Assembly (NCBI RefSeq): GCF_003148885.1
Contig: NZ_QGHD01000011.1
Location: 1 to 64,000 of the forward strand
Source: Hallerella porci
Lineage (GTDB): Bacteria; Fibrobacterota; Fibrobacteria; Fibrobacterales; Fibrobacteraceae
Length of the DNA stretch: 64,000 nucleotides
Reading direction: 5' to 3'
In this document: piece by piece, positions 15,707-46,637 of the stretch
Layout: each line of letters begins with the position of its first letter
How positions within the stretch are numbered: the stretch's first letter is position 1
The notes under the pieces: model-generated
What the model was told of the DNA's origin: nothing
The model's input: only the letters and a program-made list of their open reading frames with translations
The model's database searches: none
Made by a program: the position numbers and the translations under genes

Positions 15707-18625
15707 TCATCTCAAAAGTAAAAGTGGTAATGCGGGTAAATAATTTACTGCTGTATTTTCTTGAAATACGCTTCCATCTTGTGATGTGTATTGATAAAAA
15801 TTTTTAGCTGTTGTTGCAGAATGGATTTCTTTGGTGTTGCCATTTTTGGTAATGGTTAATGAACCATCGAGAACTCCTAAAATATCATAAGCATCATTGT
15901 TTCTTGAAATCATTGTGATGCCAGTTGAAGAAAAATCTCCAGAACAGTCATTATAAGGTAAAATATCGCAAATTTTAAAGGGGGTATTTCTTGGCGGAAT
16001 AATTAAGTATTTGTCTTTATTTGGTGTAGCGAAACATTGAAAATTTTGTAGACAAATATCTGTTTTAGAAAATAACTCTTGAGTTAATGGGTATTCCATT
16101 ATATACATAACTGAAGTTTTATTTTGAACTGACGTCCATAAATTAGTTAAATATTTTTTTTCATTATTAATTAAATCATAATCATTTCTTTGAATGTGTT
16201 GCTTTATTGAGATGATTTGATAGTTTGTGATAGTAGTATCAAGTAGATCTATTGGTTCTTTATTTGAGGTATATAGTTTTAAGTGAGTCGAATCTAAATG
16301 AGCATTTATGTTTGCAAGCCAAACCATTCCCTTTTCTGTTGGTCTATCAATTACCCAAAAACTTTCTCCAAAATAGAGAATGGTTCTGTAATTTGTGATA
16401 AATTCATTTTTTATAAAATCTTGAATAATATTTGTGCGAGCTGTGTAGCCTATAATATTTTTTTGCGGATTGTTTATATGTTTGTCTAAAACTTTTGCTT
16501 CATAGCCGCCATCTACAGTAAAATCATAGTTTTTGTCTTTTATTTTAAGGACTATATTAAAAATAGCCATATTTGCTGACCAAAAAAATCCGGGAGTTGA
16601 ACCCATCATTTTTTCAGTTCGTTTTCGTAATTCATCAATTGAAATTGTATAATTATCGGGTTGCCCTCCACCGATTAAACAATCTTTTTTAGAGGTTGAT
16701 GATTCACAATTTTTTCCATAAGTAAGCACATTGTGATTGTTGTATCGATGAAAATTTTCATCTGAACGATTATAAAATTCAGAATAACCTCGGTCTTGAA
16801 TAATAAATCCTTTTTTTGAACTGGATAAAGTAATGGATAAATTATCTTGTTGGTCATGAGATTGCCCATTTTCTAATAAATCGCCATTTTCTGCGATCAT
16901 TGATAAAGCAACAGTATCGTTACCTGCGATTGCAGTAATTAGTCCAATTCCATCTTTAAAATCTCCCCATAATAGATTGCTCTCTGTAGGTATTGTAAGT
17001 GAGTCTAAATTGTAATTCGGAAATCCTAAAAACATGATTGGAGATAATTTGTATGGATCAACAGGATGTTTATTTGCCCATTTATAATAGATTGGATTTT
17101 CTTTTAATTTTCCCCAAATGCGATAATCTGGATTATAAGTGCAGCCATCATCAATTTCAACAGGAATATATCCTGCATTTTTTACGGGTCTTGAAAAATG
17201 GTACATATAATCGGGAGATGCTAAAAATTTTTCATTGATAAAAATAGACTGCCCTTGAGTTGCATAAGCTTCTTTTAGAGCTGCTAATAAGTAAGGAAAA
17301 TCTTCCCAAATGTATTCAGAATAACCAGCTCCTTCTGAATAAGCACCATTTGAACTATAATGAATATTTAAGGCATCGTTAATCGCCTTTAAATTATTAT
17401 CTGTTCCAAAGTGAATGTATTCATATAACGCTAAACTTCCATAGGATTTGATGGCAATATTGTTAAATGCTAAAAATGGTGCTGCAAGTTCAAGCCAAGC
17501 TAAAACACCATCGTAAACTTTTTTATAAGCCATTAACGAAAAGGCTCTAAAATTATTTTTATCAAGCCAAGCGAGTAAAGAAATGCGAACCATCGCTTCT
17601 GAAATAGCAATTAGTTTTTCTTGATGGTTATTGAAAATGTTATAACCTTTTTTAGAAATAAAATCCTTAGCAAAAAATCCACAATCAATAGTGGATGAAA
17701 GTTGATTAGACCATTTGTAATCGTAGGCTTCATAAAATTTGGTACAATTTGCAGTATAAGATTTGTCTATAGAATTTCCAAAATCTTTCCATTTTTTTAT
17801 GTAATTTCCTGTTAAATTGAATGTTTCGTAGCAAGCGTTAATTCCATCTACAATCCAAGCAGCATCTTCTATCATTGAACTACTTGTTAAAAAATAATCC
17901 TCATAATTTAATGTATCAATTTGATTGTTTTTATGATTGCTAACAATAATTTTCCCAAGACCTGAGGTTGAATCTAATTCAAAATCGAATCGATTTTTTT
18001 TGTCAGAATTCAATTTTGATAAAATTTCATCTGTTAATAAAAGGTTTAAGTTATCCCTTGTTGTTGCCCATTTTTTAGCTTCATTATCGTCATCATTTAA
18101 AGGTTTCAATTGAATAGTATCGCTAGCGTGTAAATAATTTTCAAAAAATTTCCAATTATAACTTGATGTATCAATTTGAATATTATTTTGCGATAAATTC
18201 CAACTAGTTATAGATTTGTCATTTGAAGAAAAAGTTTTTGAAAGTTGATCTTTTATGCCAACAAAATCAAAACAAAGTATTTTTTTGTATAATTTATAAA
18301 TCCATTGTGCTGGTTGGTAAATTCCGTTGACAACAGAACAACATATCGTTGCAACAGTTGATGAATAACCATCAACAATATCTCTTACATTTTTAGAAAA
18401 TTTTGCCGTTACTCCTAATGCAGGTACATCAACATAAACAGCAGCTTTTACAACATTTTTTACAAGTCTAAACAAGCTAAATGAATTTGTTCTAAAATAA
18501 ACAAAGTCATCTACAATGCTATCTGCTTTTATACTTTCCCAACGATTTTCAGATTTTATAAAGTGTTCCACATAAATGCTATCATTTGTAGAATAGGAAA
18601 AATCTAAAGGGAGCGCAACATCCAC
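15707..18625 (-). CDS. Heparinase II/III-like C-terminal piece (probable polysaccharide lyase)
   Basis: This piece encodes 972 residues from a GTG, but the frame is open back to about 18778, so the GTG is probably not the real start. The middle resembles the alpha/alpha-toroid plus beta-sandwich of heparinase II/III and alginate-lyase families: GAYSEGAGYSEYIWEDFP, then SHDQQDNLSITL and IIQDRGYSEFYNR, then NNHNVLTYG. These correspond to the H.H.D and HN regions of that family. It would cleave an acidic polysaccharide outside the cell. The lipoprotein gene at 14945-15703 follows at once. Exact substrate cannot be told. Confidence 0.6.
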   Translation of the reverse strand: MDVALPLDFSYSTNDSIYVEHFIKSENRWESIKADSIVDDFVYFRTNSFSLFRLVKNVVKAAVYVDVPALGVTAKFSKNVRDIVDGYSSTVATICCSVVNGIYQPAQWIYKLYKKILCFDFVGIKDQLSKTFSSNDKSITSWNLSQNNIQIDTSSYNWKFFENYLHASDTIQLKPLNDDDNEAKKWATTRDNLNLLLTDEILSKLNSDKKNRFDFELDSTSGLGKIIVSNHKNNQIDTLNYEDYFLTSSSMIEDAAWIVDGINACYETFNLTGNYIKKWKDFGNSIDKSYTANCTKFYEAYDYKWSNQLSSTIDCGFFAKDFISKKGYNIFNNHQEKLIAISEAMVRISLLAWLDKNNFRAFSLMAYKKVYDGVLAWLELAAPFLAFNNIAIKSYGSLALYEYIHFGTDNNLKAINDALNIHYSSNGAYSEGAGYSEYIWEDFPYLLAALKEAYATQGQSIFINEKFLASPDYMYHFSRPVKNAGYIPVEIDDGCTYNPDYRIWGKLKENPIYYKWANKHPVDPYKLSPIMFLGFPNYNLDSLTIPTESNLLWGDFKDGIGLITAIAGNDTVALSMIAENGDLLENGQSHDQQDNLSITLSSSKKGFIIQDRGYSEFYNRSDENFHRYNNHNVLTYGKNCESSTSKKDCLIGGGQPDNYTISIDELRKRTEKMMGSTPGFFWSANMAIFNIVLKIKDKNYDFTVDGGYEAKVLDKHINNPQKNIIGYTARTNIIQDFIKNEFITNYRTILYFGESFWVIDRPTEKGMVWLANINAHLDSTHLKLYTSNKEPIDLLDTTITNYQIISIKQHIQRNDYDLINNEKKYLTNLWTSVQNKTSVMYIMEYPLTQELFSKTDICLQNFQCFATPNKDKYLIIPPRNTPFKICDILPYNDCSGDFSSTGITMISRNNDAYDILGVLDGSLTITKNGNTKEIHSATTAKNFYQYTSQDGSVFQENTAVNYLPALPLLLLR

Positions 18626-18747
18626 AGTATCGCCATTTTTTAATTTCTCATCAATATCGTAAATGTCTCCCAGAATACATAACTCTTCATAATTTTCAGG
18701 GCCATTCGGATTAAATTCTAATTTGTTGTAAGTCGGAATTTTTCCGT

Positions 18748-19188
18748 CTACAAATTTTTTGAAACAAAAGGAGTTTCGTCAAATTCATAAATCGCTTCAA
18801 CAAAATCTTTATCAAGTAATTTTTCGGTTTTCTTAATTTCAATCCATTCAGGAGTTTCTTTTTTTGCCCACCATTTTAATTTTATTTTTCGATGGTCATT
18901 CATGACAATTTCAAAAGTCGGCGCAATGTTAATTTGATGAGATAATTTGACGATTGTATTCCAACCGCTTAAAGGAACTCTTTTGTTTCCGGCATAAAAA
19001 TAACCATTCAGTTGTTTTTTATCCGTGGGCTCAATTTGTACATAAATCGTGGTGTATTCAAATTTTGGAAGTTCTGTTATTTTGAAGTTTGAAGAAATTC
19101 CTTTAAATTCAGTTGTTGAATTTAGTTCTCCTAAATCAATATCATTTTTAATTTGTTCAAAATAAATGGAATCAAATTTTTCAATCAA
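18748..19188 (-). CDS. Fragment of the disrupted heparinase-like gene (second repeat domain)
   Basis: This frame of 146 codons has only a TTG start, no signal peptide and no Shine-Dalgarno, and runs into a stop 3 codons after the A6 tract. It contains QLNGYFYAGNKRVPLSG and a closing KLKWWAKK, the same layout as the upstream piece. It is best read as an internal part of the disrupted gene rather than an independent protein. Confidence 0.45.
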   Translation of the reverse strand: MIEKFDSIYFEQIKNDIDLGELNSTTEFKGISSNFKITELPKFEYTTIYVQIEPTDKKQLNGYFYAGNKRVPLSGWNTIVKLSHQINIAPTFEIVMNDHRKIKLKWWAKKETPEWIEIKKTEKLLDKDFVEAIYEFDETPFVSKNL

Positions 19189-19252
19189 TTGTTTTTTTAT
19201 CTAATCTGTTTTTGAATTTGTTTCTTGACAAGTTGACGTTGCAATTTCAGAA

Positions 19253-19588
19253 TCAACCCACCATTGAATGGGTAAATTTTGTGATGGACCCTCGTATTGA
19301 ATCAAAAGGGAATCGGATTTTTTTAAAATTGATTTCGTGATAATAAGAACGCAGATTATATCTACAGTCATTAACAGTTAAATTTCCTGAAAGTGGAACT
19401 GATGGAATCGAATTGATTCCTAAAATAATTCGCGAATAAAACCAACCAGTAGGAAAATTTTTTAATGCGATTTCGTCGCCGTTTTGAAGAGAGATGACTG
19501 TTTTTTCATTATAGGAAATGGAATGTATTTTCGCAAAAGAAATTTGTGTTATGCAAAGTAAAACAATAGCGAAAATAATTCGAGTCAT
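19253..19588 (-). CDS. Signal-peptide-bearing fragment of the disrupted heparinase-like gene
   Basis: This frame of 111 codons starts with a clear signal peptide (MTRIIFAIVLLCITQISFA). It contains SVPLSGNLTVNDCRYNLRS before the A7 tract. Read as is, it ends in a short unrelated tail; with one A removed it continues through an IQWWVDSE segment that matches the second repeat domain. It is probably the true 5' end of the disrupted gene. Confidence 0.5.
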   Translation of the reverse strand: MTRIIFAIVLLCITQISFAKIHSISYNEKTVISLQNGDEIALKNFPTGWFYSRIILGINSIPSVPLSGNLTVNDCRYNLRSYYHEINFKKIRFPFDSIRGSITKFTHSMVG

Positions 19589-19594
19589 AAAATT

Positions 19595-20038
19595 TTAGGG
19601 AACGATAGAAAGTGATTTTATCGGACAAGATACAAAAGTTGGTTTCCCATTTGCATCATTTAAAATAGCGCAATTCGTATCATTAAGAGTGTTTGTTGCC
19701 GAAGAATAATTCACAAAAATAATGCTAAAAAAACTTTTAGTTGCGTATCCAGTTTGCGCCAAAGCTTGCGTTTGATTGTAGCTTAAATTAGAAGATGGAA
19801 GAATGTGAAATCGCAAAGAATATTTTTTATTGTTAATTGTGACCGTGTCGCTAGAAGCAATAAAAAAGGTGCCACCTTCTTGAATGGATAATGAAAATTT
19901 TGATAAAGATGTTATACAAGTTGATTTTGGAATGCCAGGATTTCCCGAATAATTATTGTCGTTACAAATAATTTGAGCATTGATGGGAAGTAGATTAAGT
20001 AGTAAAATAAATCCAATCTTCTTAAAAATTTCATACAA
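19595..20038 (-). CDS. Small secreted protein of unknown function
   Basis: The body of about 147 codons follows a signal-peptide-like stretch IGFILLLNLLPINAQ. The in-frame start is a TTG at 20038 behind ATGGAG. A much better-looking start, ATGAAATTTTTAAG at 20034, is out of frame by one base; one extra A there would give MKFLKKIGF and a textbook signal peptide. Either the TTG is used or this gene too carries a one-base lesion. It lies 6 bp upstream of the disrupted heparinase-like gene on the same strand. Frame codons upstream of 20038 overlap the promoter area of the divergent lipoprotein and are probably not translated. Confidence 0.5.
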   Translation of the reverse strand: MYEIFKKIGFILLLNLLPINAQIICNDNNYSGNPGIPKSTCITSLSKFSLSIQEGGTFFIASSDTVTINNKKYSLRFHILPSSNLSYNQTQALAQTGYATKSFFSIIFVNYSSATNTLNDTNCAILNDANGKPTFVSCPIKSLSIVP

Positions 20039-41241: not shown

Positions 41242-42615
41242 TTATTCTGTCGGGCCTGCAGGAACTTCGGCAGCGGCAGAGGGCTTAGAAATCAGCTTCA
41301 TATAAATGACGCCGAGAATTGCTGAAGCGAAACTTCCCGAAAGAATTCCGACTTTTGCCGCAGCGAGGAAGTGGGCGTGAGCCGGATCGTCAAAGGCAAG
41401 GCTTGCGACAAAGAGCGACATCGTAAAGCCGATACCCGCGAGCATTCCACCGCCGAGAAGAATGCGCCAGTTGACGCCATTCGGAAGACGGCAAATTTTT
41501 GCCTTAATCGCTGCAAACGAAACGAGGAAAATGCCGAGAGGTTTACCGATTAAAAGACCGAGAGCGACAGAGAAAGTTACCGCACTAATCGCTTTCGGTT
41601 CGATGACAACGCCGGCGTTTGCCAAAGCGAAGAGCGGCATAATCACAAAGTTCACCCACGGTTGCAAATGCGTATTCAAACGGCCTTGCAAAGAACCGCT
41701 TTCGCGCGAAGTGCGTTCGAGCATATCCAAAACTTCTTTGCGTTGATCATTGGTCATCGGGCGGTTTTCTTTGACCGCATCGCCGACCGTTACAATCAAA
41801 CGATCCATATAAGTCTTCGCAACCATCGGAGTCACCGGAGTCAAAAGACCGATAATCACACCGCAGATTGTCGGGTGCACACCGCTTTGCACAAAGCAGA
41901 ACCAAGCGACAATAGCGAGGACACCGTGGACAAAGAGATTGCGAATGCCGACCTTAAACGAAAGCCAAGTGAGGAAAAGGAAAATCGCAGCGATAGCGAG
42001 AGCGCTCCATTGGACGCCGCTCGAATAACCGACGGCGACGACGATAATCGAACCGATATCGTCTGCAATTGCGAGGGTCAAAATCATCACGCGTAAGCCG
42101 TGCGGAATGCGGGAACCGAGAAGAGCCATACAGCCAACGGTAAAGGCGATATCCGTAGCCATCGGGATTCCCCAACCGTGATGAGCTTCGCCCGGGCAAA
42201 GGATAAGATAAATGAGAGCGGGGAAAATCATTCCGCCGATAGCGGCGAGAATCGGGAGCAAAGCTTTCCGCACATCGTGCAATTCACCTTGAACAATTTC
42301 ACCTTTCACTTCCAAGCCGACAGAGAAGAAGAAAATCGTCATTAACGCATCGTTAACAAGCCAGCCGATGCTCGGAGCGTGATCGCCGAGGGCTTTGCCT
42401 AAGCTCCAAGAACCGATATGAAAATCAAATGGTAAATGCCAGAAAGCGTTATAGGTTTCGTTGGATAAATTCGCCCAAAGAAGAGCTAAAAATGTCACAA
42501 CGATAAGACCAATGCCCGCAGTGGATTCCACTTTGAGGAATCGCTGAACCGGAGCTACAAATTTATCGATTGCCGCACGCGGCATATCTGTTCCGAGGAC
42601 TTCTTTTTCTGCCAT
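41242..42615 (-). CDS. nhaA: Na+/H+ antiporter NhaA
   Basis: This 457-residue protein has about 11-12 membrane helices. The ion-binding signatures are intact: IPMATDIAFTVG (the D133 position of E. coli NhaA) and LAIADDIGSIIVVA (the D163/D164 pair). It exports sodium in exchange for protons. The ATG at 42615 is chosen because AAAGGAAA precedes it; an in-frame start 45 bp upstream is less likely. About 60 extra residues at the C-terminus and before helix 1 explain the length compared with E. coli NhaA (388). Confidence 0.92.
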   Translation of the reverse strand: MAEKEVLGTDMPRAAIDKFVAPVQRFLKVESTAGIGLIVVTFLALLWANLSNETYNAFWHLPFDFHIGSWSLGKALGDHAPSIGWLVNDALMTIFFFSVGLEVKGEIVQGELHDVRKALLPILAAIGGMIFPALIYLILCPGEAHHGWGIPMATDIAFTVGCMALLGSRIPHGLRVMILTLAIADDIGSIIVVAVGYSSGVQWSALAIAAIFLFLTWLSFKVGIRNLFVHGVLAIVAWFCFVQSGVHPTICGVIIGLLTPVTPMVAKTYMDRLIVTVGDAVKENRPMTNDQRKEVLDMLERTSRESGSLQGRLNTHLQPWVNFVIMPLFALANAGVVIEPKAISAVTFSVALGLLIGKPLGIFLVSFAAIKAKICRLPNGVNWRILLGGGMLAGIGFTMSLFVASLAFDDPAHAHFLAAAKVGILSGSFASAILGVIYMKLISKPSAAAEVPAGPTE

Positions 42616-42747
42616 GGCTTTTCCTTTTTGATGAAAGCACCCCAAAAATAAAAAAAGCACCTATTAAATTTCAAATTTTTCGCATTGTCTTTGAACAAAT
42701 TCCTTTTTTTCGAATAAAATGAGGTTTGTTTATAGAAGTGCGGCTTT

Positions 42748-42811
42748 GAATGAGATTTTAGAACTTAGCGCTTAGAAATTCTAAGATCAAAGTTCTCCGC
42801 TCTAAGTTCTT
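42748..42811. repeat. Left flanking palindromic repeat of the 42-bp array
   Basis: The outer arms AGAACTTAG (42760-42768) and CTAAGTTCT (42802-42810) are inverted, and nested between them is the perfect palindrome CTTAGAA-A-TTCTAAG (42771-42785). A copy in the same orientation lies at 43365-43435, sharing GAATGAGAT, AGAACTTAG, AAGATCAAAGTTCTC and CTAAGTTCT. No reading frame is evident. Confidence 0.8.
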
Positions 42812-42858
42812 AAAAATGGCGCTTCGCACGAAAACTTCCAAAATTAACCGCTAAAAAA

Positions 42859-43361
42859 TTCGCACTTCCAGACCTATTTGGTGAGTAAAACGGCACCATT
42901 CAAAAGTGCAAAGCCCCGTTTTACCCAACAAATGTCCCTATTCAAAAGTGCAAAGCCCCGTTTTACCCAACAAATGTCCCTATTCAAAAGTGCAAAGCCC
43001 TGTTTCGCCCAACAAATGCTCTTCACAAAAGTGAATTGCCAGATTTGGTAGTAAAAACAGCCCTTTTCAAAAGTGAATTGCCAGATTTGGTAGTAAAAAC
43101 AGCCCTTTTCAAAAGTGAATTGCCAGATTTGGTGGTAAAAACAGCCCTTTTCAAAAGTGAATTGCCAGATTTGGTAGTAAAAACAGCCCTTTTCAAAAGT
43201 GAATTGCCAGATTTAGTAGTAAAAACAGCCCTTTTCAAAAGTGAATTGCCAGATTTGGTGGTAAAAATGCCACCATTCAAAAGTGCAATGCCCCATTTGG
43301 TGGGTAAAATGGCATCTTGCAGAAATGCGAGGACACATTTGGTGAGTAAAACGGCATCTCG
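42859..43361. repeat. 42-bp tandem repeat array, 12 units, with three inverted-core units
   Basis: Units begin at 42859, 42901, 42943, 42985 (41 bp), 43026, 43068, 43110, 43152, 43194, 43236, 43278 and 43320. Most start CAAAAGTG. Six central units (43026-43277) are nearly identical and carry a core like GATTTGGTAGTAAAAACAGC. Units at 42901, 42943 and 42985 carry instead GTTTTACCCAACAAATG, which is the reverse complement of the CATTTGGTGAGTAAAAC core in the end units. Because 42 is a multiple of 3, both strands stay open by chance in the central part. There are no unique spacers, so it is not CRISPR. The rest of the 42616-43528 gap outside the array, its two flanking repeats and the prs terminator holds no gene I can see. 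Confidence 0.9.
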
Positions 43362-43364
43362 CAG

Positions 43365-43435
43365 GAATGAGATCTTAGAACTTAGAGTTTAGAGCTTAGC
43401 ATTTCTAAGATCAAAGTTCTCAGTTCTAAGTTCTC
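43365..43435. repeat. Right flanking palindromic repeat of the 42-bp array
   Basis: This is a direct copy of the left flanking repeat: GAATGAGAT (43365-43373), AGAACTTAG (43377-43385), CTTAG/CTAAG (43395-43399 and 43405-43409), AAGATCAAAGTTCTC (43407-43421) and CTAAGTTCT (43426-43434). It is slightly longer than the left copy because of an extra AGAGTTT-like stretch. Bases 43441-43490 beyond it include the palindrome GTGCGCAC and no gene. Confidence 0.8.
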
Positions 43436-43495: not shown

Positions 43496-43526
43496 AAAAA
43501 AGGCTCGCTAAAAGCGAGCCTTTTTT
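43496..43526. terminator. Strong terminator after the prs homologue
   Basis: AAAAAAGGCTCGCT (43496-43509) and AGCGAGCCTTTTTT (43513-43526) form a perfect 14-bp stem with an AAA loop. It is symmetric and works in both directions. Confidence 0.93.
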
Positions 43527-43528
43527 AA

Positions 43529-44695
43529 TCAATACATGTGCGGAGGCGGCCAACGCGGGTTCTTTGAACTCATATCGACCTTGTAGAAGTTTTTGTCATA
43601 GCGACCGTCATCTTCACCATAGAGACGCATTACATAACGCGACATCCACTTGGCGATTTTCAAAACGGTGAGCTTATGACGCAAACGACCTTGGCAGTCG
43701 CGGTTCATAATATCCGGGAGAGTGTTCGTCGTCAAAATTTCGTCGATAGCAGGGCTGTTCAACTTTTCGCGGGCTTCTGGGCTCGAATTGAAATGCGAAA
43801 CGCAGAAACAAACGCGGTTGGGTTTTCCTGTTTTCAAGTAATCGCAGCAGCGAACAATCGTCGAACCGGTGCGAACCATATCGTCGAAGACGATGACATC
43901 TTTGCCTTTTAAATAATCCAGCTGCACTTCGCTATCCGGAGAAAGCGACATGCTGACTTCGCGTTCGCCTGTACGCACCTTGCTCATAATCACGCGTTTG
44001 CATTTTGAGAGTTGGAGCGCATCGAACATCGCGTTTACAAACGGAGTTGCACCTTTATCGGGGGCGACGATGACGAGGTTATCGCCATCTTTTCCGGTTT
44101 GCACGAAATTCGAAGTCTTAATATAATGGGCATACACTTCCGTCGGAATCATATTGTGGAAGTGTCCGCCAAAAATTTCGCTGTAAAGATTCTGAACTTT
44201 GACCGAGTGATTGTGCACGGTAACGACTGCATCGACTCCCGAAGCCTTCAAAAGCTGCGCATAAAGTAATGCGGTAAACGGCTGACCGTCGAATTTTTTC
44301 AAATCCGAAACGGGGCGGTCTTTTTCTAAATCGCCGACGCGATGAGCGCCGCGGTCTTGTGCACTGTAGAACAAATCCGGTTCAATTAAAACAACGCTTT
44401 CGGCTCCGTTTTCTTTGGCGGCACGTGCCAAAATGCAAGCGCGCATAGCTAAATCGTTGCGGCTCCACTCGTGAGTTGTCGAAGAGCAGATAAGAACGAT
44501 TTTGCCTTTTAAGCGCTTACCGATGTTTTCGTCGTCGAAAACGTCGAGCATGTAACGCGGGCAGAATTCGGTATTCGCGTAGGTCTTGAGCGAAACGGTA
44601 TCGGAGATGTCTTCGCGGAGTCCGATGTATTGAGCCATGTCAATAGCAAACGGATCATCCGTAAAGGTTCCTGTAACTATGAATCGATCTTGCAT
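43529..44695 (-). CDS. prs: Ribose-phosphate pyrophosphokinase homologue
   Basis: This 388-residue protein follows the Prs layout with two phosphoribosyltransferase-like halves. Matching elements are PDLFYSAQDRG near residue 107 (the catalytic/ATP flag region), TVHNHS near 159, VIVAPDKGA near 208 and the PRPP loop VFDDMVRTGSTIV at 269-281. Standard enzymes have DDMxDTGGT, so D-to-R and G-to-S changes are present in the loop. It is about 70 residues longer than usual, mostly at the ends. The ATG at 44695 has AAGGATTCC upstream. Activity as a PRPP synthase is likely but the loop is atypical. Confidence 0.82.
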   Translation of the reverse strand: MQDRFIVTGTFTDDPFAIDMAQYIGLREDISDTVSLKTYANTEFCPRYMLDVFDDENIGKRLKGKIVLICSSTTHEWSRNDLAMRACILARAAKENGAESVVLIEPDLFYSAQDRGAHRVGDLEKDRPVSDLKKFDGQPFTALLYAQLLKASGVDAVVTVHNHSVKVQNLYSEIFGGHFHNMIPTEVYAHYIKTSNFVQTGKDGDNLVIVAPDKGATPFVNAMFDALQLSKCKRVIMSKVRTGEREVSMSLSPDSEVQLDYLKGKDVIVFDDMVRTGSTIVRCCDYLKTGKPNRVCFCVSHFNSSPEAREKLNSPAIDEILTTNTLPDIMNRDCQGRLRHKLTVLKIAKWMSRYVMRLYGEDDGRYDKNFYKVDMSSKNPRWPPPHMY

Positions 44696-44742
44696 CCAAG
44701 GAATCCTTTTTGATGAGTAAACAAAAAAGTAGAAAATTTTCT

Positions 44743-46509
44743 CTAATTTAAATTGGCGCCGTCGATAATCCACTCGCAGAGAGAATGGATGTTATCGTAA
44801 TCGGGAAGGAAATGATGCGGATCTTCGCGGTGAACGCGTTCGACAAATTGATGCCACACATGTTCATTTTTCCCATCTAATCCTAAATGCTGTTCAATGG
44901 CTCCGCGGGTCCAGACCCAAATGCCGACCTTTGCCAATTTATTGTGAATATTTTCTAACGGTTTCCGCGCTTCGGGGAGGGCTGCCATCATCGCGTAAGC
45001 TTCACTTGCCGAGATGCGCGATTTTTTGCTCACCGGAATGCCGTGAATTAGACGAATATGTTCTTGCAAAGAAAGTTCGCGGAAAAGCGATTTGCAAAAA
45101 TCGATATCGGGATCATCTTTGGCTAAGAATCCGTCTTGTTGCGCATTGTTAAATGCATAATCCAAATCGACGATGGCGCGGACCGGTAAATCCATCGCCG
45201 CTAATACTTGCATACTTTTTCGCGTATTGCTTACGCCGCCTTGATGCACCAACGCACAGCGAATGAGCGCAAACGAAAGTCCCGTCATTTTTTCAAAAAG
45301 AGTCGGGAGAACGCGCCATTCGGTTTTGCCTTCGGTTAAAAGCACGTAATCGGCGAATAAAAGCTCGTTGGAATTCGAAAGGGAGAAAAGCATTTGCAGC
45401 TGCGCTTGCGCATCGGTAATGACAGAATGCACAGCGTCTTCCATACGGCGGCGCATAAAGGTTCCGCGTTCTTTATTCTTTCGGATGAGAAGAGAAGTGC
45501 TCACATCTTCGCTCGTAACCATTTGTGCGGAATGCGTTGCAAAGACGACTTGATAACCTTCGTGCGAAAGATTTTTGAGGGCGACGCGGACAAGTTCAAC
45601 GGCTTGCGGATGCAAAAATAATTCGGGTGAATCGATTAAAAGAAGTGTGCGGCTGAGGTAATGATTGTTGTGATGCTTTTTTACTTCGTCCAAGTAACGC
45701 ACAAGCGCCATTTGGATGGCGCGTTTTGAGCCTGCGCCCATCGATTGAATGTCGCGTTCAAAGCCGTCATCTTCGTCGAGGACGTTGAGCTGCGCCGTCG
45801 AAAGAAATGCGTTGAGAGTCGGCGCTTGAATGTCTAAGCGCACGTTGACAGAGGGAAAAAGTGGGCGGAGTTTTTGATTGAGCCCGCGTTCAAATAATGC
45901 AAATTCTTCGGCGCGCGAATCGCTATGCGCATCCAAAAGGGCGCTGAATTTTTGAATGAGTTCGTTAAATTCTTTGCCCAAGCGACGTTCTAACGGTTTA
46001 AAAATTTCATTGAGCAATTTTGCGAATGCTTTATCGCCTTCAAAATCCCAAATCTGAATGGGCGGCGGAAAAATGCGAGAAAATGTTTCTTCAAATCCAA
46101 ATGGAGCTTTTACCCATTCGCCTTTTCCTTTGGCGGCGTCCCAATCGAGAACCCAAAATTCAACATCGGCTGCGTTTTCGCCGGGGACGCGCTGCGAACG
46201 TTGCACGCGCAATTCACCGTTTTTTAAAAATGGCGCTAGAAGTTCGCGCTGTTCGGGTTCGAGTTTTTCTAAAATCGCGGGCGAAATTCCGCCGAAAAGA
46301 CCTTCGGCTTCGACAGGAATATCTGGATTATCAAAGTAAGAATTGTTGAGAGAAGAGCGATACAAAAGCCAACGAATTCCCATGAGAATATTCGTTTTGC
46401 CCGCATTATTGTAGCCGATGAGAGCGGTAAAATCGCTCAGCGGAAATGTCTCCTCTCGGATTGAGCGGAGATTTCGAATGGTAATCGATTTTAATTGCAA
46501 CGCTTCCAT
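44743..46509 (-). CDS. OLD-family ATP-dependent endonuclease (AAA ATPase plus Toprim)
   Basis: This 588-residue protein has an ABC/SMC-type ATPase head with Walker A GYNNAGKTN at 32-40 and Walker B TLLLIDSPELFLHPQA near 299-314, followed by the switch motif FATHSAQM. A C-terminal Toprim nuclease domain follows (LLTEGKTEWRVLP near 408, IVDLDYAFNN near 464). OLD proteins nick DNA and some act in phage defence. No UvrD-like helicase partner (Gabija type) is adjacent, so this is a stand-alone class 1-type OLD. The ATG at 46509 is chosen because the ATPase fold starts right after it. It precedes the prs homologue by 47 bp on the same strand. Confidence 0.85.
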   Translation of the reverse strand: MEALQLKSITIRNLRSIREETFPLSDFTALIGYNNAGKTNILMGIRWLLYRSSLNNSYFDNPDIPVEAEGLFGGISPAILEKLEPEQRELLAPFLKNGELRVQRSQRVPGENAADVEFWVLDWDAAKGKGEWVKAPFGFEETFSRIFPPPIQIWDFEGDKAFAKLLNEIFKPLERRLGKEFNELIQKFSALLDAHSDSRAEEFALFERGLNQKLRPLFPSVNVRLDIQAPTLNAFLSTAQLNVLDEDDGFERDIQSMGAGSKRAIQMALVRYLDEVKKHHNNHYLSRTLLLIDSPELFLHPQAVELVRVALKNLSHEGYQVVFATHSAQMVTSEDVSTSLLIRKNKERGTFMRRRMEDAVHSVITDAQAQLQMLFSLSNSNELLFADYVLLTEGKTEWRVLPTLFEKMTGLSFALIRCALVHQGGVSNTRKSMQVLAAMDLPVRAIVDLDYAFNNAQQDGFLAKDDPDIDFCKSLFRELSLQEHIRLIHGIPVSKKSRISASEAYAMMAALPEARKPLENIHNKLAKVGIWVWTRGAIEQHLGLDGKNEHVWHQFVERVHREDPHHFLPDYDNIHSLCEWIIDGANLN

Positions 46510-46637
46510 GATTTTAAAGTAAACAAAATCGAGAAGCGAAGACGGAAAAAGTTTTTGGTTTCTGCGGGATTTTTGGATTACACGCAATTTTGCCTGATAA
46601 GCGAACTTTATTTTAAGATTTTATATATATCTATGTT

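Follow-up and report, generated by a model that had tools for sequence, protein, structure and literature searches.

The tandem array studied here raises the question of how three neighbouring units came to carry a reversed core while the rest of each unit keeps its direction, and of whether such an array serves the cell. We followed it through the window (the whole 64,000-nucleotide stretch analysed), through the host genome and through its relatives.

Organization of the array

The array sits in the spacer between nhaA and a prs-like gene, with heptad-repeat elements on both sides (Table 1). Its 503 bases correspond to 12 x 42 minus 1, that is, 11 units of 42 bp and one of 41 bp. From left to right come one diverged forward unit, three units whose core is reversed (R units), six F' units and two forward units.

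Table 1. Features of the array and its surroundings (positions in the window)
Feature	Position	Strand	Remarks
nhaA-type Na+/H+ antiporter gene	41242..42660	-	5' end facing array; Pfam PF06965, E 7.9e-128
Left heptad-repeat element	42753..42814	.	TCTAAGATCAAAGTTCT type, partly self-complementary
Left end unit	42859..42900	+	forward core (42875-42891), outer part diverged
R unit 1	42901..42942	+	inverted segment 42916-42935
R unit 2	42943..42984	+	same sequence as R unit 1; inverted segment 42958-42977
R unit 3	42985..43025	+	junction unit of 41 bp; inverted segment 43000-43019
Six F' units	43026..43277	+	forward subtype CAAAAGTGAATTGCCAGATTTGGTAGTAAAAACAGCC..., order as on contig C7
Two forward units	43278..43361	+	right end of array
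Right heptad-repeat element	43369..43435	.	CTAAGTT/AACTTAG, partly self-complementary
Hairpin GGCTCGC-TAAAA-GCGAGCC	43502..43526	.	A and T runs flanking, terminator-like, at 3' end of prs-like gene; read from sequence, absent from the terminator scan's list
Ribose-phosphate pyrophosphokinase-like (prs-like) gene	43529..44773	-	3' end facing array; Pfam PF00156, PF13793, PF14572

The forward core reads TATTTGGTGAGTAAAAC in the left end unit and CATTTGGTGAGTAAAAC at 43336-43352. The reversed core is GTTTTACCCAACAAATG at 42918-42934 and 42960-42976; in the third R unit it reads GTTTCGCCCAACAAATG (43002-43018), with 2 mismatches to the former. In every R unit the outer part CAAAAGTG runs in an unchanged direction. 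Direct reading thus bears out the preliminary description, which had reported three units with a reversed core inside a 42-bp array and outer parts in the array orientation. Its description of the units holds for the three inverted cores at 42901-43025, but the third core is diverged and its unit has 41 bp. It had also overlooked that the six middle F' units form a forward subtype of their own.

The core is turned in place

The CCATTT/AAATGG arms that bound the core are perfect (6-bp) in the local forward unit 43278-43319. When positions 16-35 of the best F unit were inverted, R1 agreed with it at 36/42 positions, compared with 32/42 uninverted, a score above all of 2000 core shuffles, whose highest value was 32. 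The best inversion interval was 17-34, with 37/42 identity to R1. Since the arms are palindromic, intervals down to 22-29 are equivalent, and for the same reason the visible change lies mainly in the loop. All best-fitting intervals are symmetric about unit position 25.5, the dyad centre, and leave the 42-bp register unchanged: in the R units the core is turned in place, centred exactly on the CCATTT/AAATGG dyad. This is in keeping with the earlier suggestion that inversion through these arms, or template switching, is plausible. The closest flipped F unit still lies at least 5/42 bases from R1, and the parental unit was not found.

Alternatively, the R core could have evolved independently and resemble an inversion only through its palindromic arms. 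Arm similarity indeed adds to any inverted match, and the diverged R units on contig C7 reach only 32-33/42 inverted against 29-30/42 direct; taken alone, the inversion case for these C7 units is weaker. However, the 8-nt loop of R1 by itself matches at 7/8 positions inverted and 2/8 direct, and the score of R1 was beyond every shuffle. We therefore regard an independent origin as highly improbable.

One flipped block in two arrays

The window array lies on contig C11 of a 2.85-Mb genome in 78 contigs. A search for the unit in the genome and in relatives, as proposed in the preliminary description, returned nine arrays of this A-type unit on seven contigs of the host genome and none in 40 relatives. 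When A-type arrays were cut at CAAAAGTG, 111 pieces had 42 bp and two had 41 bp. The count includes the final piece of every array, whose length was set to 42 by the procedure; two such pieces are not repeat units. Both 41-bp units are R-to-F junctions, one on C11 and one on C7, and they are near-identical.

Among more than 100 A-type units, R units are confined to the C11 and C7 arrays, with three copies on C11 and nine plus two degenerate ones on C7; C7 is also the one other array with flipped units among the ~32 sampled. In the remaining arrays, scanning for units flipped in place turned up no clear case among whole internal units, only array-end and hybrid units. The C11 and C7 arrays have in common a gap-free block of 370 bases, 89.7% identical, which extends from R1 into the sixth F' unit, and they differ outside it. 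The simplest account of both arrays is a single inversion, followed by amplification and by copying of a multi-unit block. An assembly artefact is argued against, as far as the contigs can tell, by the presence of related arrays on separate contigs with different flanks and by the recurrence of the R block on C7.

Higher-order repeats of 84 and 126 bp, as multi-unit duplication would give, were observed within 42-bp arrays at L045:4338-5166 and L047:3931-4816.

The distribution of R units also bears on programmed, site-specific inversion, in which a recombinase would flip the core repeatedly, for example to vary nhaA expression. The core, with its inverted arms, is invertible in shape and the array lies upstream of nhaA. 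Nevertheless, arms of 5-6 bp are far below the length of usual recombinase sites, the flips form one contiguous block common to two arrays instead of being scattered among more than 100 units, and other arrays occupy tandem, convergent and divergent spacers alike. Such a switch is extremely improbable.

The array looks non-coding

A 118-aa ORF at 43036-43392 crosses the array, and long ORFs are found in other arrays too, because 42 is a multiple of three (3x14). Among 81 distinct forward units, stops occur in 69, 7, 42, 3, 38 and 15 for frames +1, +2, +3, -1, -2 and -3, respectively. No marked excess of synonymous changes was seen among these units in any of the six frames, and frame -1, the most open, showed a deficit (0.130 versus 0.219 expected). 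Pfam gave no match to the array ORFs. The stop distribution, the missing synonymous excess and the frame -1 deficit, together with the location between genes, support the earlier view that the array is non-coding; on these grounds it looks non-coding, with its ORFs as by-products of the 42-base period.

A repetitive peptide of 14 residues per unit would fit a period divisible by 3 and the long open frames across several arrays. Against this, several frames are open at once, the synonymous changes point the other way in the most open frame, the frame is broken by the 41-bp unit, units of 41 or 43 bp make up some families, and the ORFs have no Pfam counterpart. We find a coding array hardly conceivable.

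A conserved hairpin was also considered and rejected. On either strand, the RNA of the array folds better than shuffled sequences (z about -4), as repeats with inverted copies do anyway, and compensatory change is absent from the arms: at pair 16/35, 19 Watson-Crick combinations were counted versus 29 expected.

A genome-wide class of 41-44-bp arrays

Other arrays of 41-42 bp with different units were first seen at loci of heptad elements (for example L054, L056, L062, L066, L068, L070 and L079). In a 1.26-Mb sample of the host genome, partly chosen for A-type arrays, 34/67 tandem arrays have a period of 41-44, among which 27 repeat at exactly 42; period 14 ranks second, with 5 arrays. The unselected contig C1 alone gives 10/19. 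Of the 34, two are located within genes and show no relationship to the others, which leaves ~32 of non-coding type. Arrays make up ~8% of the intergenic DNA in the sample, intergenic counts being approximate since the gene model, longest ORFs, is crude. So large a set of 41-44-base arrays is unusual for a bacterium.

Heptad elements (CTAAGTT / AACTTAG, and GTTAGTG at other array ends) flank many arrays and occupy 32 sites in the host genome. Of 28 intergenic heptad clusters, 18 lie within 300 bases of an array, compared with 8% of the remaining intergenic DNA (p about 1e-13). The 20-base heptad pattern occurs 28 times in the host genome, in 0/5 congeners and once in genome G006.

Full-unit alignments scoring above every shuffle link 26 unit consensuses. 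Families A and B have one 21-bp half in common (20/21) and differ in the other; shorter stretches are common to the family pairs C/J, E/D and B/G, and hybrid units stand at the ends of single arrays. To judge by these common halves and hybrid end units, the class is mosaic in behaviour, with halves of ~21 bp as its pieces. The idea that every unit is strictly palindromic was rejected, since it does not hold generally.

Relatives and the array period

In four congeners prs and nhaA are adjacent, with a spacer of ~42-310 bp versus 868 bp here, so that the array is most simply an addition in the host lineage. Viral contigs contained no exact match to the unit pattern.

Sampling beyond the host genome gave 0/9 arrays at 40-44 bp in 400 kb of the complete genome of congener G002, and 1/61 at 66 loci around prs in Fibrobacteraceae and relatives. 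Fibrobacter intestinalis ATCC 43854 (G005), of the same genus as the host genome and close to it, has 7/31 arrays with a period of 41-42 bp in a 538-kb sample, and a gene contains at least one of the seven. The idea of a class confined to one species was dropped on this result. The units of its 41-bp arrays (L312, L315, L316, L331 and L334) are mostly unalignable to host-genome units; homology of its 41-42-bp units to the latter is not significant for most and weak for L328 (z 3.1). The strict heptad pattern accompanies one F. intestinalis array only. Divergence may have gone too far for any kinship of these units to show; alternatively, something other than common origin may favour the period.

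The second possibility would suit a functional array that binds a protein or bends DNA, where a nucleoid-type protein would read the spacing: 42 bp is about four helical turns, and each unit has two dyads 21 bp apart. Several observations could be taken in its favour, namely the nearly uniform 42-bp length of A-type units, the dominance of period 41-44 across families, the F. intestinalis arrays with mostly unalignable units, and the invariant blocks in the A unit (CAAAAGTG, ATTTGG and AAAA), which could reflect a binding constraint instead of neutrality. However, families span 41-45 bp and follow no strict helical multiple, half-period dyads are automatic for any palindromic circular unit, and many units are not significantly palindromic. 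Moreover, most families are related by descent, and descent alone can fix a period. On balance we consider a binding or bending role unlikely. A broader version, quite unlikely in our view, is that the Fibrobacter clade keeps an intergenic satellite period of about four helical turns while sister species replace the unit sequence, a process or protein measuring the length and swapping or flipping ~21-bp dyad modules.

A probable template-switch origin

The array probably belongs to a large series of non-coding intergenic satellites specific to the lineage, in which one template-switch flip was later amplified and copied. Three steps can be read in the sequences: an array was added where relatives have a short spacer, the core of its R units was inverted in place about the dyad, and R units occur in two of the examined arrays only, which have one gap-free multi-unit block in common, 41-bp junction included. 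From these we infer the template switch, the amplification and the transfer between arrays. During replication or repair, a polymerase would switch template at the CCATTT/AAATGG inverted repeat, copy the loop from the opposite strand and switch back, which would flip the core once. Slippage or unequal recombination would then multiply the flipped unit, and recombination or gene conversion would copy the R-containing block between the C11 and C7 arrays. Similar switches and exchanges at dyads would also give rise to the mosaic of ~21-bp halves among array families. No role for the host or for neighbouring genes is needed in this account.

A precedent exists in spacer inversions that arise when template switching occurs at short inverted repeats (PMC8604942). 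The yeast inversions described there have arms over 9 bp only and 2-5 changed bases, an arm range that is an observation and not a defining limit (PMC8604942). The R core resembles them in that the loop between inverted arms is turned in place, with arms conserved and register kept. It differs in that the flipped unit has multiplied in tandem and has also been copied into another array, and in its shorter arms: a length of only 5-6 bp, with a loop of 8 nt, is a real weakness of the template-switch account. Small hairpin-loop inversions are also reported in chloroplast genomes, where, as in the R core, the loop is reversed between unchanged arms.

Comparison with known repeat systems

Large dispersed families of non-coding satellites are described as rare in prokaryotes; those of Leptospira interrogans and Methanocella conradii have units of 37, 46 and 69 nt (PMC6749651). 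Like them, the host arrays are apparently non-coding, have units of tens of bases with a regular length, and recur in several families through one prokaryote genome, related arrays standing at separate sites (nine of A type on seven contigs). Unlike them, the host arrays have one dominant narrow period (41-44) and exchangeable ~21-bp halves, often abut heptad repeats and, in two cases, carry an inverted core. The L. interrogans families are nonetheless the best match and the nearest in kind. The word Fibrobacter is absent from the text of that report (PMC6749651).

With BIMEs and REPs, the host arrays have in common extragenic, partly palindromic and mosaic modules amplified in tandem (PMC2817692, PMC3733652). 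The likeness in palindromy is partial, since unit palindromy is significant in some families only and the arms lack compensatory changes. The A-unit consensus CAAAAGTGCATGGACACATTTGGTGGGTAAAATGGCACCTTG has no GTAG or CGTC end tag, and in contrast to the alternating orientation of REP/BIME, all A-type arrays are built head to tail at a fixed period. With these two defining features failing, we do not assign the host arrays to REP/BIME. Spread driven by a RAYT appears unlikely, since counts of Y1 transposases do not follow the arrays: Y1_Tnp has one match in the host genome (C33:2487-2816) and more in congener G002, whose 400-kb sample is without such arrays. Like the host array, CRISPR arrays lie in a spacer region and repeat a dyad-symmetric sequence in tandem, but the host array has no unique spacers and its entire 42-bp unit repeats.

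Because arrays, unit halves and a flipped core can be followed between sites of the host genome, it becomes testable in a group of fibre-degrading gut bacteria how bacterial satellites arise, spread and turn over in sequence, and what part very short inverted repeats play in template switching.

Surroundings of the array

Promoter and terminator scans of the spacer between nhaA and the prs-like gene gave results near chance level, and an Rfam search found no match near any gathering score. Just upstream of the prs-like gene, on the minus strand, lies an ORF for an OLD-family ATPase/TOPRIM-like protein (window 44743-46587; PF13175, PF20469), which overlaps the prs-like ORF by ~30 bases; OLD-type proteins include phage-defence nucleases. 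Elsewhere in the window, positions 16001-20000 are A+T-rich, with a GC of 0.30 against ~0.36-0.46 in the surroundings, and are possibly acquired DNA.
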